Source of the DNA: Acidimicrobiia bacterium
GTDB lineage: Bacteria > Actinomycetota > Acidimicrobiia > Spongiisociales > ZC4RG35
Assembly (NCBI GenBank): GCA_028285585.1
Contig: JANQOU010000002.1
Span: forward strand, 329,263-393,262
Reading direction: 5' to 3'
DNA length: 64,000 nucleotides
Shown here piece by piece: positions 1 through 43,928 of the stretch (the first letter of the stretch is position 1; the number at the start of each line of letters is the position of its first letter). The notes under the pieces were generated by a model. The model was given only the letters and a program-made list of their open reading frames with translations. It was not told where the DNA came from and searched no databases. A program made the translations under genes and the position numbers.

Positions 1-5
1 TAGGC

Positions 6-659
6 ATGCGAATCCTGGTTGTCGAAGATGAAGCTCGGCTCGCCATGACCGTCGCCAAAGGGCTTCAAAACAACGGCATGGCAGTCGACCTTGCCTATGA
101 CGGGGCGGAGGCTCTGGAGAAGGCGGCCGTCAACGATTACGACGTCGTCGTGCTCGACCGTGATCTTCCAAAGGTGCACGGCGACGACGTCTGCCGGGAG
201 CTGATCGCAGCTGAAGACCCGGCTCGCATCCTGATGCTGACGGCAGCCCGCTCGATCGACGAGCGGGTCGACGGCCTCAACCTGGGTGCCGACGACTACC
301 TGTCGAAGCCCTTCGACTTCTCGGAGCTGGTCGCCCGGATCCACGCTTTGCTCAGACGGACGGCGGCACCTGCCGCGACGGTTCTCGAGCACGACGACAT
401 CCAACTCGACCCGGCCCGACGTACTGTCACCCGTGGCGGATCTGACCTCGCGCTGTCTCCCAAGGAGTTCGGAGTTCTGGAGACCTTGCTTCGAGCCAAA
501 GGTGGAACGGTGAGCACCGAGGAGTTGCTGGAAAAGGTGTGGGACGAGCACATCGACCCGTTCACCAACGTGGTGCGGGTGACGGTGATGACGCTCCGTC
601 GCAAGCTCGGCGACCCACCCGTCATCGAGACAGTGACGGGAGTTGGATACCGGTTGTGA
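6..659 (+). CDS. OmpR/PhoB-family response regulator
   Basis: Two-component transcription regulator that binds promoter DNA when phosphorylated by its partner kinase. The receiver domain (residues 1-115) has the acidic pair E7/D8, phospho-acceptor D51 in VVLDRDLP, T79 and K101 in the SKPF motif. A winged-helix Trans_reg_C domain follows (about 125-217, ending GVGYRL). Length 217 aa is normal for the family. The ATG at position 6 starts the conserved MRILVVEDE strand. The stop overlaps the GTG start of the kinase gene (GTGA), so the two are translationally coupled. The regulated genes cannot be told from the sequence. Confidence 0.95.
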   Translation: MRILVVEDEARLAMTVAKGLQNNGMAVDLAYDGAEALEKAAVNDYDVVVLDRDLPKVHGDDVCRELIAAEDPARILMLTAARSIDERVDGLNLGADDYLSKPFDFSELVARIHALLRRTAAPAATVLEHDDIQLDPARRTVTRGGSDLALSPKEFGVLETLLRAKGGTVSTEELLEKVWDEHIDPFTNVVRVTVMTLRRKLGDPPVIETVTGVGYRL

Positions 660-1849
660 GGTGGTGGCCCCGGCGAACGATCCGCAACCGGCTAACGCTG
701 TGGCACGGCGGGTTGTTCTTCCTGGGCGGGCTGCTGCTCCTGGTGCTGACCACAAGCCTTCTGGTATGGGCTGCCTGGTCAGAAGGACAGGCGACCATTG
801 ACATCGGTCGCGCGGCCGGGATTTCTGAGGAACTCCTCACCGGTGACGACCCGATCGGCGAGATAGAGAAAGCAACCTCTATCAACGGGGTTCCTTACGA
901 AGACTTGATCGCCCAAGTCGATGTCGAGGATGCCGGTGAGGGCATCGAGGACCTGTTCAACTTCTCCTTGATCTCACTAGCGGTCCTGACGGTGATCGCT
1001 TCTCTCTTCGGCTACTGGTCGTCGGGCCGGATGCTGCGGCCAGTAGCAGCGGTCACCGGAGCGGCGAAGCGGATCTCGGAGTCCAACCTCAGTGAGCGCC
1101 TCGACTTCGGAGGCCCCCAGGACGAGTTGAAGGACCTCGCCGACACCTTCGACGGGATGCTGGAACGCCTCGACGCGGCATTCACTGCTCAAGAGGACTT
1201 CATCTCGAACGCATCTCACGAGTTGAGAACACCGCTGGCGATCATGAGGACCGAGATCGATGTCAACCTTTCCGATCCTTCTCTCACCGACGAGGAGCGG
1301 TCGGCGAGCATCGCCGCCGTCCGTGATGCGGTGTCCCGCTCCGAGCTGGTGATCGACCGGCTGCTGCTCTTGGCCGGGTCGGAGGTGCTGCACGATCGGG
1401 TGGCCGTGGACCTGGCCGATCTTGCCGAGGGGGAGATCGCCCACAGAGAGGGCATGGCTCGTAAGAGGGGCATCGAATTCTCGGTCGAACTGGGCCCGGC
1501 ACCGGTGAGCGGAGATGCTGCACTGCTCGCTCAGATGGTGGGCAACCTGGTTCAAAACGCCATCGTCCACAACAACGACGACGGCTGGATCCGTGTGTCC
1601 ACGGGGCGCGGAGACGGCCAGTCTTGGCTCGTGGTGAGCAACTCCGGCAACCCCATTCCACCCGAAGCCGGAGCGAAGCTGTTTGATCGCTTCTACCGGG
1701 TACCCGGCTCTCAATCAGGCGGGCACCGCGGGATCGGCCTTGGTCTCCCCATCGTGAGGAGCATTGCTCGTGCCCACGGCGGAGACGCTGACGCCACCCC
1801 CCGAACTGAAGGGGGCCTAGAAGTCAGCGTGTGGCTACCCGGACCCTAA
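656..1849 (+). CDS. Sensor histidine kinase, partner of the upstream regulator
   Basis: Membrane histidine kinase of about 397 aa. I chose the GTG at 656, overlapping the regulator stop, because residues from there read VRWWPRRTIRNRLTLW and lead into the first membrane segment. The order is: TM1 (about 14-38), a short extracytoplasmic sensor loop, TM2 (about 105-125), HAMP, HisKA with phospho-accepting H188 in SHELRTP, and HATPase_c with N-box NLVQNAIVHN and G-box GIGLGLPIV. The signal sensed is unknown; the small sensor loop gives no ligand clue. Confidence 0.93.
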   Translation: MRWWPRRTIRNRLTLWHGGLFFLGGLLLLVLTTSLLVWAAWSEGQATIDIGRAAGISEELLTGDDPIGEIEKATSINGVPYEDLIAQVDVEDAGEGIEDLFNFSLISLAVLTVIASLFGYWSSGRMLRPVAAVTGAAKRISESNLSERLDFGGPQDELKDLADTFDGMLERLDAAFTAQEDFISNASHELRTPLAIMRTEIDVNLSDPSLTDEERSASIAAVRDAVSRSELVIDRLLLLAGSEVLHDRVAVDLADLAEGEIAHREGMARKRGIEFSVELGPAPVSGDAALLAQMVGNLVQNAIVHNNDDGWIRVSTGRGDGQSWLVVSNSGNPIPPEAGAKLFDRFYRVPGSQSGGHRGIGLGLPIVRSIARAHGGDADATPRTEGGLEVSVWLPGP

Positions 1850-2020
1850 GGCTATAGAGCTGCCCCAGGTGAAGAGCGTGTTTGAACTGCTGGACAAAGC
1901 GTCACAACCACTTGGTCTCACCACATCGACCGGAGCGCAGCATCTGGGGATACCTGAACCTCCGCCTCTCCTCCTGGGTCAGATCTTACGCGCCTACCTT
2001 GGCAATCCCCTTCCTCAGTC

Positions 2021-2965
2021 TCATGAGGGGAACGCACGTAGCCGCATCGCCTCGGAGTACAAGTGGCTAAGGATCTCGAATGTCATCGACTTGATGTAGT
2101 TGTCGTCTGCACTGACCTCGGTCTCGAGCGTTGGGTGTTCCGAGCCAATCAAGGTAAGTCGCCGCACGTTACTCCCGGCCTTCTCTCGGACGGCCCTCTC
2201 CAATCTGGGGAGATGAAAGGTTGAACTGATAACAATAATATGGTGCTCCTGATCGGCTCTAACTGCGGTTTCCCAGAATTTATCGACATTCTGTTCGGTT
2301 GTCCTAGAATCGTCGTCCGAGTGCACCACGAAATGCGTGAAGCGTCTACTTCGAGGCGGTATGAGATTATCAAGTTCAGCGAAATAGATCTTCATCTCAT
2401 TCGCTTCGTCGGGAGTTACAGCGCCTCTCTCCTTAAGGTTATCTGGATGGAGACCACAGAAGACGATGTTCAATTGAGCGTATAGAGTCTCCTTCACACG
2501 GATCGCTGCCTCGACACGAGATCGCCAGAGTTTAGGAGTCTGACAACCAGCAACAAGCATCGCATGGTTGCATTCCCCGAGTCCAGCAGCAAGGTTGACC
2601 AGATCGTCATCGATGGATATCTGCTTGTAACCCCTATCTTGTAAGATTCTTCCGCTGTACTGTAAGCCGGAGGCTCTAAACTCATCTTTGAGCAGATCTC
2701 GATATTGGAGTTGAGCGACCATCGAGGCAATGATGTCGTGAATAAACTGAGGACGTTCGCCGCGAATTTCTTTGAAGAATCTTTCGCGGTGTTGGAAATG
2801 AACCCAATCATGCATCTTCAGCTTTTGCCAAAAATGCCGATAGTCGACATTTGCCGAGTCACCGTCAACGCCAGGCGGTGAAGCGGTTGCTTCGTTGAGA
2901 GCGGCTGAATACACAGGCAAGGTCTTCTGCAGTACTCGATCAATAAACCCGTACTCGTCGCTCAT
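2021..2965 (-). CDS. Divergent DUF218/YdcF-like protein
   Basis: A 314-aa soluble protein that I cannot assign to a named function. The middle and C-terminal parts follow the DUF218 (SanA/YdcF/ElyC) pattern: a hydrophobic strand HAMLVAG (134-140), R-x-E-A-A near 150-154, IVFCGLHP where the family has an SGG-type loop, EM..YFAEL (190-198), HSDDDSRTTEQNV (215-227) matching the E-x-S-x-T-x-E-N motif, and IIVISSTFHLPRLERA (243-258) matching V-T-S-x-x-H-x-x-R-A. The glycine-rich loop is altered, and about 130 N-terminal residues have no recognised domain. There is no signal peptide. Base composition is visibly poorer in GC than the neighbours, suggesting transfer. The ATG is preceded by GGAG. Confidence 0.6.
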   Translation of the reverse strand: MSDEYGFIDRVLQKTLPVYSAALNEATASPPGVDGDSANVDYRHFWQKLKMHDWVHFQHRERFFKEIRGERPQFIHDIIASMVAQLQYRDLLKDEFRASGLQYSGRILQDRGYKQISIDDDLVNLAAGLGECNHAMLVAGCQTPKLWRSRVEAAIRVKETLYAQLNIVFCGLHPDNLKERGAVTPDEANEMKIYFAELDNLIPPRSRRFTHFVVHSDDDSRTTEQNVDKFWETAVRADQEHHIIVISSTFHLPRLERAVREKAGSNVRRLTLIGSEHPTLETEVSADDNYIKSMTFEILSHLYSEAMRLRAFPS

Positions 2966-3289
2966 CCCCGAGCTCCTTCAAGATACTCCGCAGCTAACCG
3001 CACCATAATGGCATAGAAAGCGAGCGCCAGTAGCACCTTCTCACACGACGCCAGGCACCGACATCCTTTACTGACTTGGATCGCCACTGATATCGGTAAC
3101 ACAACGGTCGCACACCTGGGACGTTCGTTGAGGAACACCTAGTCTCTGAACCGCCGCTCGATCAGCTGCGCTGCATTGCCAGTATGTCCGGGGCATCAGG
3201 ACCATCTGTCGACGAGCTAATCCGTCTCTCTAGGAACTTCTGCGAACAACCGTCGTTTACAGATAGAAAGCTGAATTGGCGGATATCCG
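2966..3289. other. Intergenic region without a recognisable gene
   Basis: About 320 bases between the divergent DUF218-like gene and the lipoprotein gene. I see no coding frame with family character, no tRNA and no strong hairpin. It presumably holds both divergent promoters, but no clear -35/-10 pair stands out. Confidence 0.5.
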
Positions 3290-4899
3290 TTGCGAAGAGT
3301 TGTTCTCATCCTGGTCGCTGGGCTTGCTGTTGGAGGCTGTTCTGAAGCGGCCACAGAAACCACAACGCCTGACCTACCTACAACCACCACTGCACTAGCA
3401 ACGACCACGACCAATCCCCCATCGCAGGAGGGCCAAGTCAGTCAGTAGCCGACGCTGAGCGTGACGGGATCCTTCTCGATCTGGCGGAGACTCCATTGTC
3501 GAGCCGACTGGAGCCGAAAGTGTCAGTCGAGGTAGAAGAAGGAACCTGGGTGCTCTCCAGCCCGAGTGGCCCGCTCTCGACGTCGGGTAGCTCCGCACCT
3601 TGGATCGTCGGCGACTCGACGGGACAGCACGGGATCGACTTCATCGTCCCCGACCACTACGGCGAGCTTGTTCTGCTTGACCATGACCAGCAGATGGAGA
3701 AGGCATACCCAATGATCAACTTCCCACCCAGTTGGCTCCACGTGACAGACGAAGCCGTGTATGTCGGTCGCGTCGGTGACGGTGCTCTGCCGTGGTCGAT
3801 CATCGGGCGAGTCGATCGCCTCACTCTCGATGAGGGGTTCTACATGTTTCGGACTTCCACCGAGGATTACGACTACTGGGCAGACAGTTGGACGTTCGCT
3901 CCCGACAGTGACCTCTCGAGGATGGTGGTGACGGGTGATCCAGCATCAGACCAATTCGACGAAGCGCAGAGTTGGATCGGACCTGTCTTCGTCAACGTCG
4001 AAGAACTCGAGAACCTCTTTGTGGGCGTGTCCACCGAATTCGATTTCGACGGCGGCTACCTTTTCTACGGCGAGAACGGTGTCGTGGCCCTCAACTACGA
4101 CGGCCGCCTGCAAGTAGTCTCCAGGGAGCCGGCCGCGTACGCGGTGGCGGTGGACAACCTTGTACTGGCTCAGCAACCCGACCGACTCGGCGACTCAGCG
4201 ATCTACCCGCCCTGGCGAGGTTGGATGGTGGATGTCTACGGCCTGGATACAGGTCCTTGGCTGATCGGTGTCTCCAACATTCAGCTGCGGCTGTGGGACG
4301 CTCGGGTGATCGATGGCAAACCGGTCGCGTTGATGACAACAACCAAATGGCAGGACCTGGAGACTTACGAAGACATCGTCCTTGTCGATCTTCGTCCCGA
4401 GCCAAGTGACGATGTGGGAACGATGTTCACCAAGGTGGGCCGGGTCGGTTCCTACGAGAACCTCGTAGACAACGCCCAGTTTGGTGGAGATCTCATCCTG
4501 ACATCAACCACGGAGGCAGGCCTCGAAGCCCGGACACTGACAGGCGATGTCGTTTGGAGCACAGAGATCGAAGCTGACAGATCATCGTTTGTCGTCGTCG
4601 ACTCCGAGGTCTGGGTGCTGACGCCCGGATTCGAGGAAACCACCTTCGACCCTCTACTCGAGGTGCATCGACGTGACCTAGTGACAGGACAGCAGGTGGC
4701 CTCTCCAACAATTGTGAGAGTCCAATGGCCATTTGCCGGCGGGTTCTGCCACAGACCGGACTGGAACGGAGAGCGACTGGTGTGTGACGAGACCTACGGG
4801 CCGCCTTTCACCCTCGATGTGAAGACAGGAGAAGTCGAGCAGATTCTGCATCCCGCAGGGCAGCACCAGGCGGGTGTCACCGCCCTGCCCCAAAGTTGA
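3290..4899 (+). pseudogene. Frameshifted secreted beta-propeller-like lipoprotein
   Basis: From TTG 3290 the frame encodes a lipoprotein signal peptide (LRRVVLILVAGLAVGGC, lipobox Cys at residue 17) and a Thr-rich linker, then stops at TAG 3446. The 3' body (to TGA 4899) is in another frame, open from about 3373. It encodes roughly 480 residues of repeated short beta-strand segments resembling a PQQ/WD-type propeller, with no recognised catalytic motif. One missing base in the C5 run at 3416-3420 would join signal peptide, linker and body into a single protein of about 535 aa. The lesion is either a homopolymer miscall or a real frameshift. Without the first part, the body (from TTG 3496) would have no export signal. 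Confidence 0.7.
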
Positions 4900-4919
4900 G
4901 GACCTAGCAGCGGGTTGAT

Positions 4920-5150
4920 CTAGCGGGAACGCACGAACTGGTTCCAGAGTGGGCGCACTCCGATGAAGTACCCGAAGATCACCCCGAGAACAGCCATTGC
5001 TGCTCCGACAGCCAAGGGCACTTCCCCTTCCCACCACTGAATTGCTCCCATGGCAACAAGAGCGATGCCAAAGACTGTCACGGTGAAACAGAAGAAGGTG
5101 CTGAGGGCTAGCTGAACCCGGTGTTCAGCTGGTGACAGGTCGTCTCCCAT
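4920..5150 (-). CDS. Small two-helix membrane protein
   Basis: A 76-aa protein with a short polar N-terminus (MGDDLSPAEHRVQLA) and two hydrophobic helices (about 15-37 and 45-66) ending with the basic tail RPLWNQFVRSR. It belongs to no family I recognise. It lies convergent to the lipoprotein gene with a 20-base gap and is separate from the next minus-strand gene. Coding is supported by the membrane topology and the charged ends rather than by homology. Confidence 0.55.
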   Translation of the reverse strand: MGDDLSPAEHRVQLALSTFFCFTVTVFGIALVAMGAIQWWEGEVPLAVGAAMAVLGVIFGYFIGVRPLWNQFVRSR

Positions 5151-5234
5151 GCCACCAAGCTACTCGCCCACAGCAGAAACCGGCTTGCCCTCACCGATAC
5201 TGGCAACGATGAGTAATCGGGCCCTGCATCCCCA

Positions 5235-5597
5235 CTAACAGTCCAACCGCACGATCTGAGAATCGTTGTAGCCGCGCATGACCACGCTGCGTTCGGCTAG
5301 TTGTAGCCGCCGCGTCGATATGGAGGTCTTCAGCGTGATCGAGCTGCGCTCGTCCTCTGGGGGGAGAAGGACAAACGGTCGACTCGCCTTGAACCGGGCA
5401 GGTTCCTCTTTGATCGACTCAATCAAGCACTCGAAGAAAGCGCCCTGCCTTGGACGCCACTCCACCAGAGCCGAGTATCCGTGGTCGGGAGGGAACACAG
5501 TTCGGAAGTGACGCACGGCCGCGATACCACCAACGAGCAAGGCGACTGCCACAACACCGACAACGACCGACCTCCTCAAGCGACGAGCCTTAGTCAT
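5235..5597 (-). CDS. Signal-anchored small hypothetical protein
   Basis: About 120 aa. I prefer the internal start MTKARRLRRSVVV at 5597. A basic N-terminus and one hydrophobic segment (about 11-29) suggest membrane anchoring or export, followed by a roughly 90-residue extracytoplasmic domain with two cysteines (in FECLIES and the C-terminal RLDC) that could form a disulphide. No family is recognised. It lies downstream of the kelch lipoprotein on the same strand, 37 bases away, so the two may be cotranscribed. Confidence 0.55.
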   Translation of the reverse strand: MTKARRLRRSVVVGVVAVALLVGGIAAVRHFRTVFPPDHGYSALVEWRPRQGAFFECLIESIKEEPARFKASRPFVLLPPEDERSSITLKTSISTRRLQLAERSVVMRGYNDSQIVRLDC

Positions 5598-5634
5598 GCC
5601 GAGCACCAGACTCGATTGGGCTCATTCGCCTTTC

Positions 5635-7287
5635 TCAACGTTCAACAAGACGCCAAGAATCGGCAACTGGGTCGTACAGGGCGGCATCTCCATAGGCCAG
5701 AACGTTGGGGTCACCACAAACAGGCAACCCGCCAAACACAAGCACTTCTGTTCCAGTCCAGGTGAGAGTGTGGTCGCATCGGTCTGCCAGCGGGCTCTCG
5801 GCAAGCATTCGCCACGTGTCCGTGCTCGGGTTGTATGCAGCACCGTTGCCATAGACGAAGTCTCCGTCGTCATCTCGTTCCGATGGGTAAGTCGCGTAGC
5901 CACCCCAGATGATCAGCTCGGTGCCGGTCCAAGCAACAGCAGCCCGGTCCCTCGGAGACAATGGCATGGGAGTGGACTCACGCCAGGCGTCGGTTTCGGG
6001 GTCGTAGAGACGCACAATGCTGACGGCTTGAGGCCCAGAGTGACCACCCACCATCGCGACGAGGCTTCCGGTCCAGACCAGATGGTGGGATTCGATGTGA
6101 ATCCGACCGATGTCGGCGATATTGGACCAGTCGCCGCTGGCAAGATCGAACGCCACGGTAGGTGCATCCGGGTATCCGCCAATGAAGTAAGCCTTGTCGT
6201 CGCCGACCACTGCCTCGACTCCCTCCATTGGATGGGTGGGCATCTCATCGAGTCGACGCCAGGCCTCGTCGGCGGGGTCGTAGGCCCAGGCTTGGTTGGA
6301 CTCCGCGTTTGTGTCACCCCCGGCCATCACGACCTCACCTCCTGCCCACACCGCGGCACCCGGCGTCCCGTACTCGGTCGTGTCTGGTCGTGGCGGGGAC
6401 ACGTCCCAGCTGTCCGTTGCAGGCGTATAAGTCAACACCACCACCGGGTACTCATCTCCTACGCGATAAACCCCCACTACATGGAGTTGATCACCGCCCC
6501 ACATGGCATTCACGCCGGGCCAGGCCGGTAGCCCAATCGGTGCATCGACAAGCTCTCGCCACTCTCCAGTCGCCGGATTGAAGCCAAGCCCGGTAGCCAG
6601 GGGCGCAGCCTCGGTTGTGCTGGCAACTCCACCGAAGACCAGTACTTCAGAACCTGTCCATGTCGCTGTGTGACCCGACCGAGGGGTAAACGGGCCTTCA
6701 CATTGTGGTGGAGCCTCGAGTCGATACACGACATGAAACCGGCAGGGGTCAGGAGCACTGATCGCCTCGGCCGCCTCGACCCGATACTCACAGTCCTGGC
6801 TGGTCCAGAAGAGGAGCGTGGTGGCGACATGCTCGATACCGGCCGCTTGCAGTGTCGGATTGCGCCGTTCCACGATGAGCCGCAATGGGCCTCCAGGGCT
6901 GTAACCGTTTACTTTCAGCACATCCCCGATGCGATCAGCGGCATCAATCCATGCGCCCACGCTGTCATATTGACCTGAGGCCTCGGGCTCGAGCGAAGCG
7001 TCGGACACGGGACCGTCCCCAATCAGACGAATTAGCAGTTCAGCATTTCGAGTGTTGTAGGCGGATGCGATCACTTCGTGCCGATTCTCTAAGCCAGCAC
7101 TCCCGACGCCACTTCTGCAACGGGACAGCGTGTGGACTGTTGTGGTTGTCGCTGACGACATTGCTGTGTCCGCAACCGATGTGACAGCAGTAGCCGAGGT
7201 GGTTGTTGAAGAAACCGAACTGCTCGCACAAGCCGCCAAGAGGATCCCTGCGAGCAAAACGACGCCACTGCGAACCAAGAGCGACAC
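5635..7287 (-). CDS. Kelch-repeat secreted lipoprotein
   Basis: A 550-aa lipoprotein. The signal peptide ends in lipobox LLAAC (Cys 20), followed by a Ser/Thr-rich linker. The C-terminal 350 residues carry kelch-type repeats, each with a hydrophobic strand, double Gly and a W about 20 residues later (for example GHTATWTGSEVLVFGG, AAVAWTGTELIIWGG, HTLTWTGTEVLVFGG). This predicts a beta-propeller displayed outside the membrane, probably for protein or glycan binding. The N-terminal domain (about 55-200) resembles no family I know. No catalytic residues are evident. The plus-strand open frame across it (5596-6531) is a shadow. Confidence 0.8.
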   Translation of the reverse strand: MSLLVRSGVVLLAGILLAACASSSVSSTTTSATAVTSVADTAMSSATTTTVHTLSRCRSGVGSAGLENRHEVIASAYNTRNAELLIRLIGDGPVSDASLEPEASGQYDSVGAWIDAADRIGDVLKVNGYSPGGPLRLIVERRNPTLQAAGIEHVATTLLFWTSQDCEYRVEAAEAISAPDPCRFHVVYRLEAPPQCEGPFTPRSGHTATWTGSEVLVFGGVASTTEAAPLATGLGFNPATGEWRELVDAPIGLPAWPGVNAMWGGDQLHVVGVYRVGDEYPVVVLTYTPATDSWDVSPPRPDTTEYGTPGAAVWAGGEVVMAGGDTNAESNQAWAYDPADEAWRRLDEMPTHPMEGVEAVVGDDKAYFIGGYPDAPTVAFDLASGDWSNIADIGRIHIESHHLVWTGSLVAMVGGHSGPQAVSIVRLYDPETDAWRESTPMPLSPRDRAAVAWTGTELIIWGGYATYPSERDDDGDFVYGNGAAYNPSTDTWRMLAESPLADRCDHTLTWTGTEVLVFGGLPVCGDPNVLAYGDAALYDPVADSWRLVER

Positions 7288-7381
7288 GACAAAGAAACGC
7301 TATCGGCATTGCCGCGGTTCCGACCGGAACGTCGTCACGCTGCGATCAATTCTGTGGGTCTGAACATGTACGGTCGCCAGG

Positions 7382-8932
7382 GTGAGTTCTCCAGATGCAT
7401 CTGCGGCGATAGACCAAGTCATTCAGCTTCAACGGAGCTAGGCGCTTCGACATGAGAAGGGTCTCAATGGCGATGAGTCCGGCTTCGCCGATCCAGCCAG
7501 CGGGCTCATTCGAGGAAGCCTCTACCCCGAAACGCTAACCGAACTCGAAGAGGGTGCAGGTGAGGAACTCAAGCGTATTCACTCGCTACGAAGCTCCACC
7601 ACGCTCAGCCTCAACGTCTTCGAACCGTGGCGCCCCAACCCCAACCCTCTCGGCTCGCTGTTTGGGGTCAAAGCCACCGGGCTCTGCTTCGAGGCAAAGC
7701 AACCGACCGGACTGAGCGGCGTGCCACCTCATCTCGATGCACTCCTCACCGGACCAGGCCAAACCGTTGGCATCGAGGCGAAGTTCCTTGAGACATACAC
7801 GATCAAGTCAGGCTCCTTCGCCGATTCCTACTTCTCAACGCCGGACCTATGGAAGAACCTGCCGAACGCACGCCATCTCGCCTTGCAGATCAGAGACGGG
7901 GAGCAGGAGTTTCGGTTCCTGCAGGCCGACCAACTGCTCAAGCATGCACTCGGACTATCCAAGAACCAGCATGCCGGCTTCAGATTGGCACTCGTCTGGT
8001 ACCGAGTCGAAGGCCGCGTGGCGACGCAAGTCGAGGAGGAGATCGGGCGTTTCGCACGCGCTGTTTCAAGCGACTTCGATTTCAGTGCGATTACTTATCA
8101 AGAGCTGGCCGCTGATCTCGCCCGACTGCAAGAGCCAACGCCTGGGTACCTCGACTATCTGGCAGATCGATATCAGCTACAGCCTGCGCCACGTGACGAA
8201 CTACCACTCGTCCTGATCGGGAACGATCCGACGATGAACAGACGAGGAGGCCTGGAGGATGCCATTCGACGCGTTGACGTAGCCGATCTACGCGTCGCCT
8301 TTTCGCGAACCGTTGCTATGGCCCCTCAGCGTCCACGAGCAGGGAAGACCTATTTCGTCGGACACTCCGGTGCTGGAGACATGTCAAACATGAGAAGTGA
8401 GAGGGTCCTCGCCAAGGCAATCTTCAACTCCGGTGGTCCCATCGAGATCGGTGGTCGCTCGATAGTGATCATCGACTACGAAGTCCCGTTGCGGTCGCAA
8501 CGGGCCGACTCAGGTGTTGGGGAGATTGACCTTCTCGGATTCGATGCTGCAAACAGGCGCTTATGCATCATCGAGTTGAAGGTCGCCCCGAACGCGGACA
8601 CGCCGCTGAAAGGTCTCCTCCAAGCACTGCGCTACTCAGCCATCGTCGATGCCAATAGACATGCCATTGAGCGACAGGTTGAGCATGAATTCCGAGTAGC
8701 TGATCTCAACTGGCCTGCATCGGTCGTCGTAGCGGCCGACAGTGCCTACTGGGACTCCCTTAGAGGAACGCCAGAAACAGGAGACTGGTTGGCGGCGATG
8801 AGAATCCTGACGAGTGATCTTGAATCACACCTCAATCTCGAGATTGCTTTCGCAGACTTTGGGGAGTTGGCGGCCGACGCAGTTATCGGTTCAGCCCAGT
8901 TGAGATCAAGGCTCGTAGCAACCCTTATCTGA
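7382..8932 (+). pseudogene. Protein with two PD-(D/E)XK nuclease-like domains, interrupted by an in-frame TAG
   Basis: From GTG 7382 the frame reads VSSPDASAAIDQVIQLQRS, meets TAG at 7439-7441, then stays open to 8932. The part after the stop is clearly protein-like: RSSTTLSLNVFEPW, then GVPPHLDALL and GIEAKFLE, a D...ExK signature of a PD-(D/E)XK nuclease. A second signature lies near the C-terminus, GEIDLLGF and CIIELKVA (D270, E285, K287 counted from GTG 7721) followed by QALRYSAIV. The only normal start after the TAG is GTG 7721, which would remove about 93 residues of the first domain. This is either a nonsense-mutated gene or one making only the shorter 403-aa form. The role could be defence or DNA repair; no methylase partner is adjacent. 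Confidence 0.65.
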
Positions 8933-9015
8933 CTGCTCGAGGGTCTCAGACAGCTCACCTCAAGCGAGCCTTCCCCGCGGGAAGCGACCGCTGATGCAAG
9001 GCACAGGTTGAGGCA

Positions 9016-9168
9016 ATGTGTCCAACTCGGAGAGAGCGGATCCCCTGGGAGCTTGTTAGCTCCCTGCGGCACGGCACCTACTTCGGTGCTGTTGGGCGAC
9101 ATGGGTTCAAGCTGCAGAAGGCACCGCACAGGTGCCTCTTCAGGCCGAGGTTTGTTCCAAGGACGTGA
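9016..9168 (+). other. Short open frame, possible gene remnant
   Basis: A 50-codon frame from ATG to TGA, containing SLRHGTYFGAVGRHGFKLQ and FRPRF. The mix of aromatic and basic residues looks more protein-like than the other frames here, but I recognise no family and see no good ribosome site. It may be a fragment of a decayed gene in the accessory zone. Confidence 0.2.
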
Positions 9169-9196
9169 TGCGTGCGACGGTGGCGTTGCGGGGACG

Positions 9197-9598
9197 TCAG
9201 GCAGGCTTGATTCCGCCTCTGTTGATCTTGGCGATCCAGGAGTCGTCACTCTCGTGGTCTTCGACCCAGGCTTCGACCCTTGACCAAAGTCGCATGAGGG
9301 TGTGAACCTGATACCAAGTCGTCTCCCTCGACTCATCAATGCTCAGGACGAACCCCTTGCATCCGTGGAACCGCCAAGCGCGGTAGCTCGGTGTATCGCG
9401 GATCAGATGGTCTTTGTCTCCGCGGAAGATGACGAGATCCAACCTCCCAGCTTCTGGGAGCCAGATCTCGTCAGGCGTCCCGGACGCGATGTCACAAGGC
9501 AGGTTGCCAACTACCCAGACGTCGCCGTAGACGCCCCTGGCCGTCTGAAAGAGCTTTCCGACCCCCTGGAGGTCCTCGTCAAACAGGTACCGAGACAA
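9197..9598 (-). CDS. vapC45: VapC45-like PIN-domain toxin
   Basis: A 133-aa PIN-like ribonuclease, probably the toxin of a type II system. It begins SRYLFDEDLQGVGK, the conserved acidic strand of the VapC45/PIN-like family, and has further acidic residues in DLVIFRGDKDH and the C-terminal half. TTG 9598 is the start, 12 bases after the upstream gene's stop, with a GGGGCGGGA-type ribosome site between. The partner, encoded just upstream, has the layout of mycobacterial VapB45. Length is close to that family. The target RNA is unknown. Family assignment is from recalled similarity to Rv2019, not from a search. Confidence 0.7.
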   Translation of the reverse strand: MSRYLFDEDLQGVGKLFQTARGVYGDVWVVGNLPCDIASGTPDEIWLPEAGRLDLVIFRGDKDHLIRDTPSYRAWRFHGCKGFVLSIDESRETTWYQVHTLMRLWSRVEAWVEDHESDDSWIAKINRGGIKPA

Positions 9599-9610
9599 GT
9601 CCCGCCCCGA

Positions 9611-10309
9611 TCAGGCAGCTTCGACCCAGCGGTCGCCGTAAGTGAAACGTCCTGCCTCGCGAATGAGTGACGGGGCGAGGCCGTAGAGCTCGGCCACGTC
9701 AGTGACAGGAGTCCCGTTGTAGACCAGACGCGCCACGGCACCAGGGCTGATCCCAGTGTCTTCGATCTTTGGCTTCCCGAAGAATCGGTCGGCGTATACA
9801 AGGACATGGTCAATGTCCATCCTCGGTCTGAGGGCATGGGCGATCCCCTCCTCGTAAGAGATCCGCCTGAGTCGCTTCTTGGCCATCTCGTCGAGTTCAA
9901 AGCGGAGCTGCCCGGTCTGGACGACCATGAAAACGTCGACCCCGTACTCCTCTTGGATTCGCCAAACGACTTCAAGGGTTTCTGGGTCTGCGTGAAGGAT
10001 CCGGTCGTCAGAGAAGAGATAGTGGGATTCAGTTCTCTCTCTTATGTCGGCAAGAATTCGACGAAGTCGGCGTAGGGGAATTCCCTCGTCGCGAAATCTT
10101 GAGAGATAGTAAGTCTCGATGAACTCTCCCCAGTTGACCAACGAGTCGAGAGCCTCGGACTCTGCCCGTACTACAGGCTCGTAGGCCCGTCCGCGCCGGT
10201 CGTAGCCGTTGATCCACCTCTGGGCGGTGCCAGCCGTCAGATCGAGTATCCGGTCTACCTCCGGGTAGGTGTAGAGACGGCGCTCGACAAGGGGGAGTTC
10301 CTGGGCCAC
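9611..10309 (-). CDS. vapB45: VapB45-like antitoxin with C-terminal DUF433
   Basis: A 232-aa antitoxin and likely autorepressor. The N-terminal part (YTYPEVDRILDLTAGTAQRWI, about 13-33) is a MerR/HTH-like DNA-binding segment. The C-terminal part (GISPGAVARLVYNG through DVAELYGL) is a DUF433 domain, which is typical of antitoxins. This order and length match VapB45 (Rv2018-type, about 239 aa). It precedes the toxin gene by 12 bases on the same strand, the usual antitoxin-first order. It differs from ordinary VapB proteins, which are 70-90 aa. Confidence 0.72.
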   Translation of the reverse strand: MAQELPLVERRLYTYPEVDRILDLTAGTAQRWINGYDRRGRAYEPVVRAESEALDSLVNWGEFIETYYLSRFRDEGIPLRRLRRILADIRERTESHYLFSDDRILHADPETLEVVWRIQEEYGVDVFMVVQTGQLRFELDEMAKKRLRRISYEEGIAHALRPRMDIDHVLVYADRFFGKPKIEDTGISPGAVARLVYNGTPVTDVAELYGLAPSLIREAGRFTYGDRWVEAA

Positions 10310-10348
10310 GAAGATCAGTGTATGACGAGACGAGTACAGAAAGCTGAA

Positions 10349-10405
10349 TCATCTATGCACTGCCCATGTGCACCCGATGACGTGGGCAAGGTCGTTTCGC
10401 TTCAC
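10349..10405 (-). pseudogene. Stump of a nucleotidyltransferase-type toxin gene
   Basis: An 18-codon frame starting at a GTG that overlaps the regulator's stop (GTGA). It reads VKRNDLAHVIG, then loses sense and stops at TGA. From memory, partners of this type of HTH_17 antitoxin begin with a very similar helix (M-x-R-x-x-L-A-H-V-hydrophobic), so this looks like the 5' end of a toxin gene whose remainder was deleted, placing the VapBC45-like pair directly after it. The family recall is the weak point. Confidence 0.35.
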
Positions 10406-10935
10406 CCTTTCGACGACCGATCGTGAGCGTTCCATGCCTCGAGAAGAGCTGTTCTCTCTTCATCGGAGAGGACTCCCGCGAAGGGCGTGTTTTGCCTCAG
10501 CTCCCTCCCGTACGGCGACCGGCTTGTCATTGCACTTAGAAGATCGGGCACCGATCCCCCAAGAAGGCGCTGCCATTCGTCCAGCCAAGAGAGCGCTCGT
10601 CCCCGAGCACGAGCCCGCATTCTCTCCAGGTTGCCAAGCGCGACGGTGCGCGTTCTGTCTGGATTGGCAACAACCTTTCCAGCTACTCCGTATGAAAGCC
10701 AAAGGCTTCGACGTTGGTCCCTGGTCAGTCGCAGAGTGCGGTCAGCAAGAGCATCCACGTCGCTTCGACGTATCCGCCTATGAGTACCGACTGTGACATA
10801 GGGCAGATCACCTCGGTTGCAGAGATCGACTACATGCTGACGAGACGAATTGAGAATCTGAGCCGCCTCCCCAGTAGTAAGCAGCACCTCCTCATGTGCC
10901 TCATCTATTTGCGCCTGCGCTAGGTGCCGTCTCAT
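10402..10935 (-). CDS. Excisionase-type HTH_17 DNA-binding protein, antitoxin-like
   Basis: A 177-aa protein. I chose ATG 10935 because the longer frame would start inside the palindromic operator. Residues about 18-62 form an HTH_17/MerR-like domain (LLTTGEAAQILNSSRQHVVD ... YVTVGTHRRIRRSDVDAL). The C-terminal half has arginine-rich helices and ends with the pattern RQNTPFAGVLSDEERTALLEAW, which I associate with antitoxins paired with nucleotidyltransferase or PIN toxins. The expected partner downstream seems to be a stump. It probably represses its own promoter through the inverted repeat 17 bases upstream. Confidence 0.7.
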   Translation of the reverse strand: MRRHLAQAQIDEAHEEVLLTTGEAAQILNSSRQHVVDLCNRGDLPYVTVGTHRRIRRSDVDALADRTLRLTRDQRRSLWLSYGVAGKVVANPDRTRTVALGNLERMRARARGRALSWLDEWQRLLGGSVPDLLSAMTSRSPYGRELRQNTPFAGVLSDEERTALLEAWNAHDRSSKG

Positions 10936-10951
10936 GCCAAACACCTTAGGT

Positions 10952-11005
10952 TTCAAACACAAAAAACACAATATAGCGCCATATATTGCGTTTCTTGTGT
11001 TTCAA
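10952..11005. promoter_or_regulatory. 24-bp-arm inverted repeat, probable operator of the HTH_17 gene
   Basis: Arms 10952-10975 and 10982-11005 match at 21 of 24 positions around a 6-base centre (GCGCCA). Each arm holds AAACACAA, then AAAC, then CAATATA. It is strongly AT-rich in a GC-rich chromosome and sits just upstream of ATG 10935, where an autorepressor would bind. Confidence 0.75.
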
Positions 11006-11369
11006 AGAGAGGGCTAGGTTGACTGCCATTGAAAGGACACCGTGACCGCGTCGAGCGGACCAGACTGCTGGAGAAGGGACCTTGGCAGGATCAACAGAGG
11101 CGGAGCGGAAGATCGAGGCTATCGGCGGTGACCGCAGGTGGAGCCCGACCAGCAGTCAGAATCACGAGAGATACCTGTCGTGCAGCCATCGTCTCCACGT
11201 CTCCCACTGGGGTAGCCTCGATGGGAGTGGTGAAATCGCACATCAACGCCACCCATATCCCCCAGCAGATCGGTGTGACTACTCAGTGCGAATTGTTGGT
11301 CTCTGGAGGAGACTGGAGACCCCACTTGTTCAATGAGTCGGGTTTGCGGTCGGATCTGGAGGGGTAGCT
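11006..11369. other. Region with open frames but no convincing gene
   Basis: Two overlapping plus-strand frames (11029-11367 and 11082-11336) are open, but their products show no domain, signal or family pattern. Neither has a better ribosome site than the lipoprotein start that follows (GGAGGGG, 5 bases before GTG 11370). It may be decayed coding DNA. Confidence 0.35.
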
Positions 11370-11861
11370 GTGCGGTACGTGACCGAAATGCGCAAGAGCG
11401 TGCCGGTTGGCAAGAGTGTGTTCTTGATCGTCCTACTGCTAGCGGCAACAGGATGCAGTGACGTGGTCAACAGCGCTTCGGAGGGCTGTGATGCGACGAT
11501 TCACGATGGGCCACTGCCTGAATGAGCCCTCGACGCCGGAGTCGAAACGGCCCGTCACGTGATCGACGCTCAAGACAAGATCGTCGGTGTCATCTTTCCG
11601 GAGGCCCTCATCGCAGGAGAGCGGTCTGACGGTGCAAGCAACAAGATCCTCTGGATTGTCAAGGACCGGAACGATTCCCACCTCGCAGTTGAGGCTGTTG
11701 CGACGGAATCCTCGAAGGAGGCACCCCTGGTCACCTTTCCCCCCAATTCAGGCCCCGGCGAGATGTATCCGTCGAGCGTCGATGTGCCGGAGCCTGGGTG
11801 TTGGGAGCTGACGCTTTCCTGGGCCAGCGAGACAGCCGTGGTGGAACTAATATACGAGTGA
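11370..11861 (+). pseudogene. Small lipoprotein gene interrupted by an in-frame TGA
   Basis: From GTG 11370 (site GGAGGGG) the frame encodes a lipoprotein signal (VFLIVLLLAATGC) and continues ...TIHDGPLPE, then TGA 11523-11525, then in the same frame ALDAGVETARHVIDAQ and SNKILWIVKDR to TGA 11861. The two parts form one continuous domain of about 163 aa. In related actinobacterial lipoproteins, as I recall them, GPLP-x is followed by W-A, so TGG (Trp) to TGA is the likely change. As sequenced, only a 51-residue truncated product would be made. UGA decodes as stop elsewhere in this window. Confidence 0.7.
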
Positions 11862-12026
11862 GCATCAGGGGTAACCGGCTCTCTTCGTGAAGGACCGGTG
11901 GCACCTGATCAAGTGGTTCAGGATGAACCGTCGTGCATCAACATTGACGGATGACGCGCCACCAAATGCCATAGCCAAAGAGGCTGGATCTGGAGCAAGT
12001 GCACTCACTATCAGGAGGTTTGTGGG

Positions 12027-12100
12027 TGGAGCTGAGGGGATTTGAACCCCTGACCCCTTGACTGCCAGTCAAGTGCTCTGCCAGGCTGAGCTACAGCCCC
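12027..12100 (-). tRNA. tRNA-Ala (anticodon GGC)
   Basis: A 74-base cloverleaf with acceptor GGGGCTG/CAGCTCC containing the G3-U70 alanine identity pair, anticodon stem CTTGA/TCAAG, loop CTGGCAG (anticodon GGC), and T arm AGGGG/CCCCT. CCA is not encoded. Its 3' end faces the accessory zone. Confidence 0.95.
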
Positions 12101-12156
12101 GTGAGGGATCGGTCAGTCTATTTGGCCCGACCCCCGAAGGTGAAACCTGAGCGTCG

Positions 12157-13296
12157 TCAGCTTCTGCGGAGCGGCTGCCAACTGCGGTAGGTGGCACACC
12201 TCCACAACCACTCGGCGGGCCCGAATCGGAACCGGTCGAGCCAGGCTTTCGACCACCACAGCTGCAAGGCCCAGACCGCAAGGACGAACACGGCGATCAT
12301 CGAGCGAGTCAGGTCGACATCTCCGAGTAGCAGGGTCAGGACCGAGACACCGAGAATCGACTGGGTCAGGTAGTTGGTCAGCGCCATACGGCCGGCAGCT
12401 TTCAAACGAACTTTGAGCGTCGACTCAGCCCGCAGGTTCCACAACACGATCACACCGATGTAGCCGAGAAAGATTGGGATCGTGGCCAACGTGTTGGGCA
12501 CCAACCCGATCAGCGCAACAGCGGGAGCGAAGTCGTTGACGGCCACGAACACGACACCAAGCGCAGCCAGCGGTACTCCGATGCCGAGCCCCCAAACCGC
12601 CATGCGACGGTATGTGTCGACCGGCCGCTCGCCGGTGATGACCTTGGTCAGGTATAGACCAACCCCGATCAGCATCATTCCCACGGCGCGGAGGAAGTAG
12701 TCGGCGAGGAAGAACAGGTCGACCTCATCGCTGCTCACGCCGGCTACGCCCCAGGACGAGCCCAGGCCGGCACCGCCCGTTGGCACCGTTCCTTGAGCCC
12801 ACACTGCCAGCAACGGCGACATCAGCACGGCTGCAGCCCCAATGACGTAGAGCGTCGTCGGGCGGAGACGTCTCATCAGGATCAGGATCGGCGCAGCCAG
12901 GGCGTACACCACCAGGATGTCACCTTCCCAAACCAGCGTGTGCAGCAGTCCAATCAACAGCAGCAGGAAGTTGCGCCACAGGCTGAGCCGTACCGGCCCC
13001 CGTCCTTTCATCTCGGCACGATCAGCGAACAGCACGATCCCGGCTCCGAACAACGCCGAGAACAATCCCATGAACTTCTGGTCGACGAACACCTCGCCAA
13101 AGACACCAACCACCCAGTCGAGCCAGTTGCTGATGCCGTCGAAGCTGATGTTGTTGTAGGCGGCTTCGGCCAGTCCGAACGAGACCGCGTTCATGACCAA
13201 GATGCCCAAGACGGCAACACCCCGGATCAGGTCGAGACTGGTGTTACGGGCCGACTCTTGGGTCGGCGCCGACTGTTCGGTCAGTTGCTCGCTCAT
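12157..13296 (-). CDS. DUF418/YeiB-family membrane protein
   Basis: A 379-aa integral membrane protein with about ten hydrophobic helices. The N-terminus SLDLIRGVAVLGILVMN is the typical start of the DUF418/YeiB group, related to membrane acyltransferases of the HGSNAT type. The later VWEGDILVVYALAAPILIL segment and the C-terminal RFRFGPAEWLWRCATY (the G-P-x-E-W-L-W-R motif) also match. It is the last gene of the TetR operon; its start overlaps the stop of the ABC-like gene (ATGA). Substrate is unknown; lipid or cell-envelope modification is possible. Confidence 0.85.
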   Translation of the reverse strand: MSEQLTEQSAPTQESARNTSLDLIRGVAVLGILVMNAVSFGLAEAAYNNISFDGISNWLDWVVGVFGEVFVDQKFMGLFSALFGAGIVLFADRAEMKGRGPVRLSLWRNFLLLLIGLLHTLVWEGDILVVYALAAPILILMRRLRPTTLYVIGAAAVLMSPLLAVWAQGTVPTGGAGLGSSWGVAGVSSDEVDLFFLADYFLRAVGMMLIGVGLYLTKVITGERPVDTYRRMAVWGLGIGVPLAALGVVFVAVNDFAPAVALIGLVPNTLATIPIFLGYIGVIVLWNLRAESTLKVRLKAAGRMALTNYLTQSILGVSVLTLLLGDVDLTRSMIAVFVLAVWALQLWWSKAWLDRFRFGPAEWLWRCATYRSWQPLRRS

Positions 13297-14168
13297 CCTT
13301 CGACGACTTCAGCTTCAGAAGACTGGCTGAGACGACGGGAGATCTCGGTGAGACGGATCGCTTGCTGGACATGCAACGGCATGGCCATCAAGCCCTGCAC
13401 GTAGTCGAAGACATACATCAAGGCTGAGATCACGAATCCAGCCTCGATCCCACCGGTCACCAAAGCCAGCGGCGTGTAAGCGATCAGGCCGATCACACCG
13501 ACGAAGAACAGTGAGAAGTTCCAGGTCTCCAGATCGGAAAGCCGGATGTTCCAGTTCATCAGCTGGGAGTAGTGGTGAGCCAGGCCGCTCTTGCTGCCGT
13601 CAGCTATTGCTTCGACCTGACGCTCCAACTCGTCGTTGTAGCCGGTGTTGAGACGCAAGTTGAGGCGGCCGGTCACGATGTAGATGAGCGCCGCGATCAC
13701 CGCCAGGCCGAGTGAGGCCAAGAACACCTGGATGTCGATCGACGCCAGGATGATCAGCGTCCCGACAACCGAGATGACCGCTGCGACGATCTCTGGCATC
13801 GAGTTCTCCATGAACTCGACGAACTCGGTGAGCAGGTTCGACCGCGCCGTGATCTTGGAAACGTTGGTGCCGCGCTTCTTCTCGTTCTCGACCATCTCGA
13901 CGGCAACCGTCTTGTAGATGCTGGCGTAGGTCCTGGTGTCATAGAAACGCCGGCTAGAGCCCACCACCAACGCGGCGACACCGAGCCCGGCGAGTGCGAT
14001 CACCCCGCCGTAGTTGTCGTCGACCAGGTCGTTGACAGCCAGACCGATGAACAACGGGAACAGCAGAGTGAGGAGTGCTTCCACCAGCACGATCCCCAGC
14101 GTCACCGATATTCGCCAGCGGAACCTCTTGGTCATCGACCACAGCGACAGGTTCTTCATCTCACTCAC
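13293..14168 (-). CDS. ABC transporter six-helix membrane domain without ATPase
   Basis: A 291-aa protein with about six transmembrane helices in the arrangement of an ABC-exporter membrane domain (PF13748-like), opening with RFRWRISVTLGIVLVEALLTLLFPLFIGLAVNDL. There is no Walker A, signature or Walker B sequence, and no ATPase gene in the operon. Either an ATPase elsewhere serves it or it has a non-transport role. It overlaps both neighbours by 4 bases, so translation of the three genes is coupled. Confidence 0.8.
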   Translation of the reverse strand: MSEMKNLSLWSMTKRFRWRISVTLGIVLVEALLTLLFPLFIGLAVNDLVDDNYGGVIALAGLGVAALVVGSSRRFYDTRTYASIYKTVAVEMVENEKKRGTNVSKITARSNLLTEFVEFMENSMPEIVAAVISVVGTLIILASIDIQVFLASLGLAVIAALIYIVTGRLNLRLNTGYNDELERQVEAIADGSKSGLAHHYSQLMNWNIRLSDLETWNFSLFFVGVIGLIAYTPLALVTGGIEAGFVISALMYVFDYVQGLMAMPLHVQQAIRLTEISRRLSQSSEAEVVEG

Positions 14169-14743
14169 GCGGCGTCTCCCAACGTCTCGATCAACCGGTC
14201 AGCTGCAACACGCAGACCGACCACCAACTCCTTCTGCTCGGCACCCACCACTTCTGCGGCCAGGGCCATCCCCCACACTCCTACGCCGACCACATCTGTG
14301 GAGGCGTCAGCGGCAGCGGGGAAAGCGAGTCTCAGCTCTTCAATGAGCGACTTGAGGACCTCCCCCACCAACTCCTCCACAAGCGCGTACGCCTCGGGGA
14401 AGTCGCCCGACGAGCGCGATACCGAGTCGAACAGCGCAAGCTCGAAGGCGTCGCCTTCGGTCTCGAAGATCAAATCGACGAAACGACCGAGACGCTTGGC
14501 ACCCGACTGAGCATCACGGACCTCTTGCAGCTCCACCCTGTACTCGTCGACGGTGCGCACCGTCAGGGCATTGACCAGATCTTCCTTGCTCCCCACGTAG
14601 TGGCGGATGATGCTCTTGTGCACACCGGCACCATCGGCAACGTCCTGCAACGACGTCGCAGCCACCCCGCTCTTGCCTATGCAGTCGGCGAAAGCGTCAA
14701 GTATCTGGGCGGTTCTCTCCTCTGTGAGATCAGGGCGAGGCAT
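14165..14743 (-). CDS. TetR-family transcriptional repressor
   Basis: A 192-aa regulator. Residues 8-55 (LTEERTAQILDAFADCIG ... VADGAGVHKSIIRHYVGSKEDLV) form the TetR helix-turn-helix. The C-terminal helical ligand-binding part is variable, as usual. It heads an operon with the ABC-like and DUF418 proteins, which suggests it senses a compound handled by those membrane proteins. A perfect palindrome over its own promoter, 8 bases before the ATG, indicates autorepression. The ATG at 14743 lies so close to the predicted transcription start that the mRNA is nearly leaderless. Confidence 0.9.
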   Translation of the reverse strand: MPRPDLTEERTAQILDAFADCIGKSGVAATSLQDVADGAGVHKSIIRHYVGSKEDLVNALTVRTVDEYRVELQEVRDAQSGAKRLGRFVDLIFETEGDAFELALFDSVSRSSGDFPEAYALVEELVGEVLKSLIEELRLAFPAAADASTDVVGVGVWGMALAAEVVGAEQKELVVGLRVAADRLIETLGDAA

Positions 14744-14750
14744 ATCGGGT

Positions 14751-14783
14751 GTTGATTATACGCTTGTATAATCAACGTCTCAA
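14751..14783 (-). promoter_or_regulatory. TetR promoter with embedded perfect operator
   Basis: Minus-strand -35 TTGAGA (14778-14783), 17-base spacer, -10 TATAAT (14755-14760). A perfect 11-bp inverted repeat (GTTGATTATAC / GTATAATCAAC, 14751-14761 and 14766-14776) covers the -10 box. Transcription would start near 14748, about 5 bases before the ATG. Confidence 0.85.
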
Positions 14784-14784
14784 C

Positions 14785-15126
14785 TCAGCCGTCGCTGGCT
14801 ACGGGCTCCTCCCAGCCAATGCGCTCCGAGTCACCCCACAAACGCTCCAGCGAATAGAACTCACGGGCGCTCTCCTGGAACAGGTGGATGATGATGTCGC
14901 CGTAGTCGACAAGGACCCACTCCGCCTCCGAGCTGCCCTCGACACGAAGCGGCTTCATCTCGAGGTTGAGTTTCAGCTTCTCCTCGACACGCTCGGCAAG
15001 AGCTTGAACGTGGGGCCGGGAGGTGCCGGTGGCGATCACGAACACGTCGGACAGAAAGAACGACTCTTCGACATCGAGCAGCACTATGTCTCTCCCCTTG
15101 GCATCGAAGATGGCGTCTGCCGCCAT
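14785..15126 (-). CDS. rsfS: Ribosomal silencing factor RsfS
   Basis: A 113-aa member of the Iojap/RsfS family, which binds ribosomal protein L14 and blocks subunit joining in slow growth. Family motifs are RDIVLLDV, DVFVIATGTS, the EGSSEAEWVLVDYGDIIIHLF core and REFYSLERLW. ATG 15126 cuts the N-terminal helix short. The same frame continues upstream (SVDLAKM...) to a GTA codon at 15151-15153 that sits 5 bases after a perfect AAGGAG, with no ATG/GTG/TTG in between, so the true start may lie upstream. It is downstream of nadD, the common arrangement. Confidence 0.9.
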   Translation of the reverse strand: MAADAIFDAKGRDIVLLDVEESFFLSDVFVIATGTSRPHVQALAERVEEKLKLNLEMKPLRVEGSSEAEWVLVDYGDIIIHLFQESAREFYSLERLWGDSERIGWEEPVASDG

Positions 15127-15196
15127 CTTGGCCAGATCGACACTCTGCTCTACGACCGCTCCTTCACAACTGTGGAATCCAGCACTCTAGGTACCT

Positions 15197-15787
15197 CTAG
15201 TCCCTAGGTGCCTGGCGGCGATCCGGGTAGAGACCGTTCTCGGCGATGTAGTAGTGGACCGCACCGTGGAGCAGCCAGCGGCAAGGCTGGCCGTCCCTGG
15301 TCAGGTTCCTGATGTCGGTGCTGGAGATCTCGAGGACGGCCATGTCCAAGAAGACGGCATCGGGAAGGGTGTCGGCCACAGCCATCGAATCGGTCCCCGG
15401 CCGGGGCACCACCAGGATCGTCGCGCGCTGTGTCACCAGCTCGTGCCGATCCCACGTCTCGAGGCCGAGTGCGGCATCGGCACCCAAGATGAGAAACAGC
15501 TCCTCGTCGTCGGGGAAGCTCTCCAGAGTGTCGGCGGTGTACGTGGCGCCGTCACGAGACACCTCACGGTCGTCGACGTCAAAGCCTTCCAGCCCCTCGA
15601 CGGCCAGCCTGGTCATCTCCAGCCTGGTTGCCGCCGGGGAGAGATCTCTATCGGCTTTCTGCCAGGGATCGCCTGCCGGGATGAACAACACCCGGTCCAA
15701 CTCGGCCTGATGCAACGCCGTCTCTCCGGCGTGGAGGTGGGCGATGTGAATCGGGTCGAACGTCCCCCCCAGTATCCCTGTGCGCAC
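15197..15787 (-). CDS. nadD: Nicotinate-nucleotide adenylyltransferase
   Basis: Makes deamido-NAD from nicotinate mononucleotide and ATP. I chose GTG 15787, which gives the family N-terminus VRTGILGGTFDPIHIAHLH with the nucleotidyltransferase GGTFDPxHxAH motif. The C-terminal ISSTDIR motif (SxTxxR) is present. Length of about 196 aa fits the family, whereas the longer frame adds 42 unrelated residues. The 5' end overlaps the C-terminal part of the upstream M23-like frame by 140 bases in another frame. rsfS follows. Confidence 0.93.
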   Translation of the reverse strand: MRTGILGGTFDPIHIAHLHAGETALHQAELDRVLFIPAGDPWQKADRDLSPAATRLEMTRLAVEGLEGFDVDDREVSRDGATYTADTLESFPDDEELFLILGADAALGLETWDRHELVTQRATILVVPRPGTDSMAVADTLPDAVFLDMAVLEISSTDIRNLTRDGQPCRWLLHGAVHYYIAENGLYPDRRQAPRD

Positions 15788-16238
15788 GAGATCGAGGATA
15801 GGGCCGGGGAGGCGTGACCAGGCGGAGCGCCCGTGTGATATCGGTGTCGACACATCCCAAGTGGCGTTCAGGATCCACATACCGGCCCTTGATCCGGAGG
15901 GAGAGATGAACACCCGGTCTCCCCCGCTCCAGGCCTGCGGTGCCGATCACCGAACCGCGCTTGACCCACTCGCCGCGCACCACTCCCACCGTTTCCAGAT
16001 ACGAGGCAGAAAGCTTCACGCCCGGGACCGGCTCGATGGTCACCGACTTGGTGCCGGCCACCGAGCCGGCAAAGGTGACACGCCCCGTGGCCGGTGCCTT
16101 GACCGGGTCACCGAGTTTCGCTGCGAAATCCACACCCCAATGGCCCGAGTATTGGCCGTTCGGGGAATACGGCTCGATCACCGCCCCGTTCACCGGAGCA
16201 GAGATGCAAACGGCTGCGATGGCCATCACCAAGAACAA
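15648..16238 (-). CDS. Degenerate M23 (LytM-like) secreted protein
   Basis: TTG 16238 is the likely start, 5 bases after GGAGG, giving the signal peptide FLVMAIAAVCISAPVNGA. The mature part is an M23 beta-sheet domain: GHWGVDFAA (H33, D37), GDPVKAPATGRVTFAG, GEWVKRGSVIG, GVHLSLRIKG, VDP. In active M23 enzymes the last motif is H-x-H; here it is H111-L-S113, so one zinc ligand is missing and endopeptidase activity is doubtful. The frame runs on about 70 low-complexity Arg/Pro-rich residues into nadD, so the end may be affected by a frameshift. Confidence 0.65.
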   Translation of the reverse strand: MFLVMAIAAVCISAPVNGAVIEPYSPNGQYSGHWGVDFAAKLGDPVKAPATGRVTFAGSVAGTKSVTIEPVPGVKLSASYLETVGVVRGEWVKRGSVIGTAGLERGRPGVHLSLRIKGRYVDPERHLGCVDTDITRALRLVTPPRPYPRSRAHRDTGGDVRPDSHRPPPRRRDGVASGRVGPGVVHPGRRSLAESR

Positions 16239-29416: not shown

Positions 29417-29494
29417 GTGTGTCCCTTGAGCGTGGCTTCGCTCCGCGAGCGACACGTCACAAGGAGCGACTTGCGTCGCCCTTGCAGGCTGTGG

Positions 29495-29746
29495 CTACTC
29501 GGGGGTCACCGAAACGAGGCGACGGTTGTTGCGAACACCGTATTTGACGGTGCCAGAAGCTGTGGCGAACAGAGTGTCGTCCTTGCCCTTGCCGACGTTG
29601 TCACCCGGGTGGATGCGTGTCCCGCGCTGACGCACGAGAATCGCGCCGGAACTGACGAACTCGCCGTCAAAAACCTTGGGACCGAGACGCTTCGCCGCTG
29701 AATCGCGGCCGTTCTTGGAGGAACCGCCTGCTTTTGTCTTCGACAT
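29495..29746 (-). CDS. rpmA: 50S ribosomal protein L27
   Basis: An 83-aa ribosomal protein whose N-terminal tail reaches the peptidyl transferase centre. The sequence starts [22 protein letters not shown] and has the core [13 protein letters not shown]. There is no cleavable leader of the Staphylococcus type. rplU lies 3 bases upstream, so the two form one transcript as in most bacteria. Confidence 0.97.
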
Positions 29747-29749
29747 TGT

Positions 29750-37267: not shown

Positions 37268-37288
37268 GACCGCGACGGGTTGGGGCGA

Positions 37289-38320: not shown

Positions 38321-38398
38321 AGCTGAGGATGACTCCCGGACGGACCCCTGGAAGTTTAGGTGGCCTGTTTCCCTAGTGCCATAGGCAATCAGCCAGGA

Positions 38399-38800: not shown

Positions 38801-38839
38801 ATGGGATCAACGCTATCCGAGCGGCTGAGCCTGAGCGAG

Positions 38840-43901: not shown

Positions 43902-43928
43902 TCGGGCGCTTCTCCTCCGAGGACCGAT

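Follow-up and report, generated by a model that had tools for sequence, protein, structure and literature searches.

The locus poses the question of what an in-frame TGA means in a putative lipoprotein gene of an Acidimicrobiia bacterium whose genome appears equipped to decode UGA as selenocysteine. Within the window, the whole 64,000-nucleotide stretch of DNA that was analyzed, the interrupted frame occupies positions 11370-11861 of the forward strand, running from a GTG start at 11370 to a stop codon at 11859-11861, and a Shine-Dalgarno sequence, GGAGGGG (11358-11364, forward strand), is seen 5 bases upstream of the GTG. The first part (11370-11525, forward strand) comprises the GTG, a lipoprotein-type signal peptide and the first 23 mature residues, and is closed by the TGA at 11523-11525; the remaining frame (11526-11861, forward strand) encodes the SNKILWIVK motif and most of a predicted immunoglobulin-like beta-sandwich domain, and stays open until the terminal stop. 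Read by eye, the signal peptide ends in the lipobox-like motif LAATGC, with Cys29 at 11454-11456, and the Pfam lipid-attachment model LPAM_1 gives a sub-threshold match on the window protein (7.3 bits against a cut-off of 20). A promoter scan over 10900-12130 found none. The initial annotation had placed a signal peptide, a ribosome site and a domain with SNKILWIVK in one frame whose only lesion was the TGA, and this description holds, as the frame contains no other internal stop.

Both sides of the TGA belong, to judge from the alignments, to a single gene, a case based on homology and not on composition because the codon scores are coding-like but not strong. With the TGA read as Trp, tblastn matches homologues on both sides of it, including L010 and L011, both from Catenulispora MAGs, and L012, from a Nonomuraea record. 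L010 aligns over query residues 2-122 of 123 (best segment 41% identity, E 1e-23, a value that refers to the candidate stretches alone), L012 aligns over residues 6-162 of 163 (32.6% identity, E 2e-11), and L011 ends at its contig edge. The codon-usage score is 0.08 before the TGA and 0.20 after it. Among segments in non-coding frames, 8.6% and 2.5%, respectively, reach these values, and among coding segments 14.6% and 30.8% score no higher; the yardstick segments are 111 codons long and the stretch ahead of the TGA has only 51. In a scan for split frames (same-frame neighbours with one stop between them, thresholds 0.1 and 0.2) the lipoprotein locus fell just short and was unlisted. The same scan listed five other places in which both halves are coding-like (28181-29749, 36353-38398, 37292-38806, 42639-44600 and 44468-45370), which are probably adjacent genes or shadow frames.

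The residue that the TGA replaces is Trp in 13 of 14 aligned homologues and Tyr in one (L025), with Cys in none, although four of them align less securely around the site (L002, L017, L018 and L025; L002 and L025 least of all) and are kept in this count but excluded from the count of invariant columns below. In an alignment of eleven rows (A5) all ten other rows carry Trp in this column. That relatives have Trp here, in a GPLP-x-W-A motif, had been proposed in the initial annotation, and the alignments bear this out; none of the 14 homologues ends at the TGA position, as homologues might have done had the frame naturally been short. The alignments thus support reading the TGA as a probable Trp-to-stop change. 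Nine uncharacterized actinobacterial proteins (L010, L011, L012 and L019-L024) carry the P-x-W, NKILW and PGCW motifs, in that order, and show 30-43% identity to the window protein over the domain, with many conserved residues in common on both sides of the site, but unlike the window gene none of the nine has an internal stop. The sole homologue without Trp, from genome G676, is divergent, and GPLPEPYAS replaces its P-x-W motif. In another homologue from the same class as our organism (L018:1306-1614, genome G480) the middle of the domain is mostly missing, in frame, so that LPAW is followed almost directly by HHPGEIYPS; it is perhaps another degenerate copy. Seven weak matches (L003-L009, E 6.1e-4 to 8.8e-3) were unused, and L015 (E 7.9e-4) was dropped as a homologue, the motif being absent.

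The gene is thinly spread among the genomes searched. A single-protein search for close relatives at E 0.001 matched none of 59 other genomes, and a profile built from the window protein, L010, L011 and L012, with one row added later, found the gene in two of 138 genomes of the order, our organism's own and G515. The profile search also recovered it in three genomes besides our own in the class (247 genomes, own included), in seven of the 345 genomes from the class to which G281 belongs, and in two besides our own, one of them weak, among 396 genomes drawn from the phylum. Open-frame homologues are present in several actinobacterial families, while the organism's own lineage contributes one sequence only among the genomes searched, and a single copy was found in its genome (2,592,747 bases in 14 contigs). 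No relative was found in the viral contigs searched, no family matched at its cut-off in Pfam (window, L010 and L012) or NCBIfam (window, L010, L012 and L019), and a PDB sequence search with the window protein found no match.

What the stop would remove can be gauged from a structural model of the read-through domain (mean pLDDT 84.4, pTM 0.77), in which nine strands are predicted and the Trp at the stop site is residue 24, in a short helix (23-28) that follows the first strand. The product made before the TGA would keep one strand of nine and is, on this model, most likely non-functional. L012 was excluded from the structure alignment. The best structural match of the model is a putative lipoprotein of Bacillus anthracis (4jg9_A; Z 10.1, rmsd 3.5, 109 of 139 residues aligned, 19% identity), a likeness of fold only; this chain is unmatched in the PDB sequence search, the top Foldseek chain is a different one (4g5a_A, E 5.4e-3), and Foldseek matched no PDB chain at or below E 0.001. 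The immunoglobulin-like arrangement is common (13 of 995 chains reach Z 8), and sharing it with 4jg9_A says nothing on function. From the fold and the signal peptide, our guess is that the intact protein would serve as a binding or scaffold domain anchored outside the cytoplasm.

The stop also looks recent on the scale of this family, because what remains of the frame is conserved almost to the degree seen in the other homologues, though the numbers are small. Excluding the stop column, nine columns are invariant in ten well-aligned homologues, and the window sequence keeps eight of them; the same ten homologues, each left out in turn, keep between 9 of 9 and 9 of 14. At the 85% conservation level the window sequence retains 13 of 19 columns, a share below that of nine of the ten homologues and above that of L016 (14 of 28), which may reflect decay or plain divergence. 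In a tree from which L018 was excluded and in which most forks are unsupported, the window branch has a length of 1.0 against a median of 0.86. A survey of nonsense-interrupted bacterial genes similarly describes, in the portion available, single in-frame stops in otherwise conserved frames with intact relatives, and argues that many such stops sit in genes still under purifying selection (PMC7918605); the genes of that survey were tested by dN/dS, whereas the lipoprotein is known from one sequence only.

We consider it likely that the TGA arose by recent nonsense mutation of a Trp codon conserved among homologues, in a sparse, dispensable lipoprotein gene with an extracytoplasmic immunoglobulin-like domain. 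Translation would begin at the GTG at 11370 and halt at 11523, yielding a 51-residue precursor that, if processed, would leave a lipid-anchored peptide of 23 residues. With one predicted strand out of nine, this peptide would not be expected to fold, and the sequence past the stop would be untranslated or reached by background leakage only. Such a loss seems tolerable because the gene is so sparse (found in two of the order's 138 genomes, own included), and it is from this that we infer dispensability.

The main rival to a nonsense mutation is an assembly error, in which the TGA is a consensus base error or the minority allele of a mixed population and the organism's gene is intact. We regard this as the less probable account, with an appreciable chance of being right: a single odd codon in a frame that is otherwise open, with a conserved remainder, is what it would produce, and the genomes searched yielded no second copy or strain for comparison. 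Against it stand the general quality of the assembly (14 contigs, 96.85% complete, 0.28% contaminated) and the nearly full-length matches to the conserved genes prfB, selA and selB, none of the three with an internal stop, both of which say nothing on one base. The initial annotation had offered a recent change, a sequence error or readthrough; the first two both stand, and the third is disfavored by the evidence on selenocysteine, release factor 2 (RF2) and tRNA-Trp that follows.

Readthrough, leaky or programmed, in which Trp or some other residue is inserted at the UGA and a little full-length lipoprotein is made, would account for an open and conserved frame beyond the stop, and lowered expression has been proposed as a possible role of in-frame stops in the accessible part of PMC7918605. 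We nonetheless hold it to be improbable. RF2 is present (prfB, 493.7 bits against a cut-off of 370), the stop is seen at this site in none of the 14 homologues, and the RNA 3' of it does not fold unusually well (z -1.48, with 14 of 200 shuffles equally good). A genetic code with UGA as Trp is unsupported in this genome, since RF2 is present, TGA terminates 19 of 29 mechanically chosen open reading frames of at least 300 amino acids, and the one tRNA-Trp found looks canonical; TGA likewise ends all ten window genes inspected. A single tRNA-Trp was found in the part of the genome scanned for tRNAs (anticodon CCA, L058:1459-1533). Its alignment suggests an anticodon stem of five pairs, with A and G at positions 9 and 24, respectively, against the four-pair stem, A9C and G24A given, in the portion at hand of PMC13092985, as changes favoring UGA reading by tRNA-Trp. 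We give little credence to a related idea, that the UGA is tolerated at this structural Trp site because low-level readthrough is useful, the stop acting as a dimmer for a surface lipoprotein in a cell where UGA otherwise means stop or, through SelA, SelB and SelD, selenocysteine. A literature search combining pseudogenes, readthrough and Actinobacteria did not find a matching paper. Highly improbable, too, is the production of two proteins, a short lipopeptide and a separate product restarted at an in-frame GTG (11559), the 12th codon past the stop: no ribosome site is seen in the sequence at the usual distance before this GTG, the restart product would be missing the Pro-x-Trp turn as well as the first strand and the signal peptide, and no homologue among the 14 is organized in this way.

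Selenocysteine is a real rival because the genome encodes a tRNA-Sec (71.8 bits, anticodon TCA by ARAGORN), selA (412.4 bits), selB (346.6 bits) and a selD (373.5 bits) that is itself Sec-coded, from which we conclude that the genome can decode UGA as selenocysteine. The selD gene (L053, C14:80024-80953) has one internal TGA in the context GAG-stop-GCK, which we take to be the Sec/Cys site of SelD; the other parts of the set lie at C13:95901-95992 (L030) and C4:427593-430657 (L049 and L041). A second match above the tRNA-Sec cut-off (L031) was set aside, being a tRNA-Ser by ARAGORN. Like bacterial selenoproteins including this SelD, the lipoprotein combines an in-frame TGA with a genome that has the Sec machinery, but SelD has a SECIS-like hairpin and the presumed Sec/Cys site, and the lipoprotein has neither. 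These hairpins were sought with a simplified model from the legend of Fig. 2 in PMC13188914 (a stem-loop 16-37 nt after the UGA, with unbroken upper stems, without bulges or energy limit). The scan gave no hit after the TGA at 11523 and eight at the selD TGA, one of which, GGCUCA-GGUUC-UGAGCC, has a six-pair stem and its loop, GGUUC, 32 nt downstream of the UGA. Some hit was also obtained at 199 of 300 TGAs taken at random from the window and at 24 of 30 mechanically listed TGA-ended open reading frames of at least 250 amino acids, so with this loose scan hits mean little and a miss is informative. The available text of PMC13188914 allows that some putative bSECIS elements deviate from the model, and also states that Cys homologues exist for nearly all selenoproteins. 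Despite the Sec machinery and an RNA whose free energy from the UGA onward is well under the model's limit, it is extremely unlikely that the TGA is a selenocysteine codon and the gene a new selenoprotein, because none of the 14 homologues has Cys at the site (13 Trp, one Tyr) and the scan gave no hit there. The locus therefore offers a control case, a UGA that very probably does not encode selenocysteine although the genome has the Sec machinery, and gene finders that flag in-frame TGAs in Sec genomes could hit it as a false candidate. It also shows that the Trp proposed in the initial annotation is real; beyond this value it would be an ordinary broken gene.

The gene lies in a neighborhood that may be the edge of an island. 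Across 7442-12100, accessory-looking genes adjoin a tRNA-Ala (GGC; 12025-12100, reverse strand), which lies 163 bases downstream of the lipoprotein gene and is given as context only; they include a restriction endonuclease-like gene, one with a PIN_10 match just under the cut-off, one with HTH_66 and a weak DUF433 match, and one with HTH_17 and a weak match to mad1 of PADLOC. No direct repeat of at least 18 bases including the tRNA-Ala end was found in 1-16000. The REase-ARP match at 7721-8932 covers only profile positions 123-269 of 270, and the frame is open back to 7442 with its first listed start at 7721, so that its 5' part may have been lost. A 19-base inverted repeat, 95% alike, at 9212-9230 and 11086-11104 places a copy of the end of the PIN_10-like gene (9197-9598, reverse strand) on the forward strand, within the 400 bases that precede the lipoprotein gene. 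A remnant of a PIN_10-like gene in this gap is only possible, because the protein comparison is weak (tblastn, best E 0.035 in one frame and 0.19 in another).
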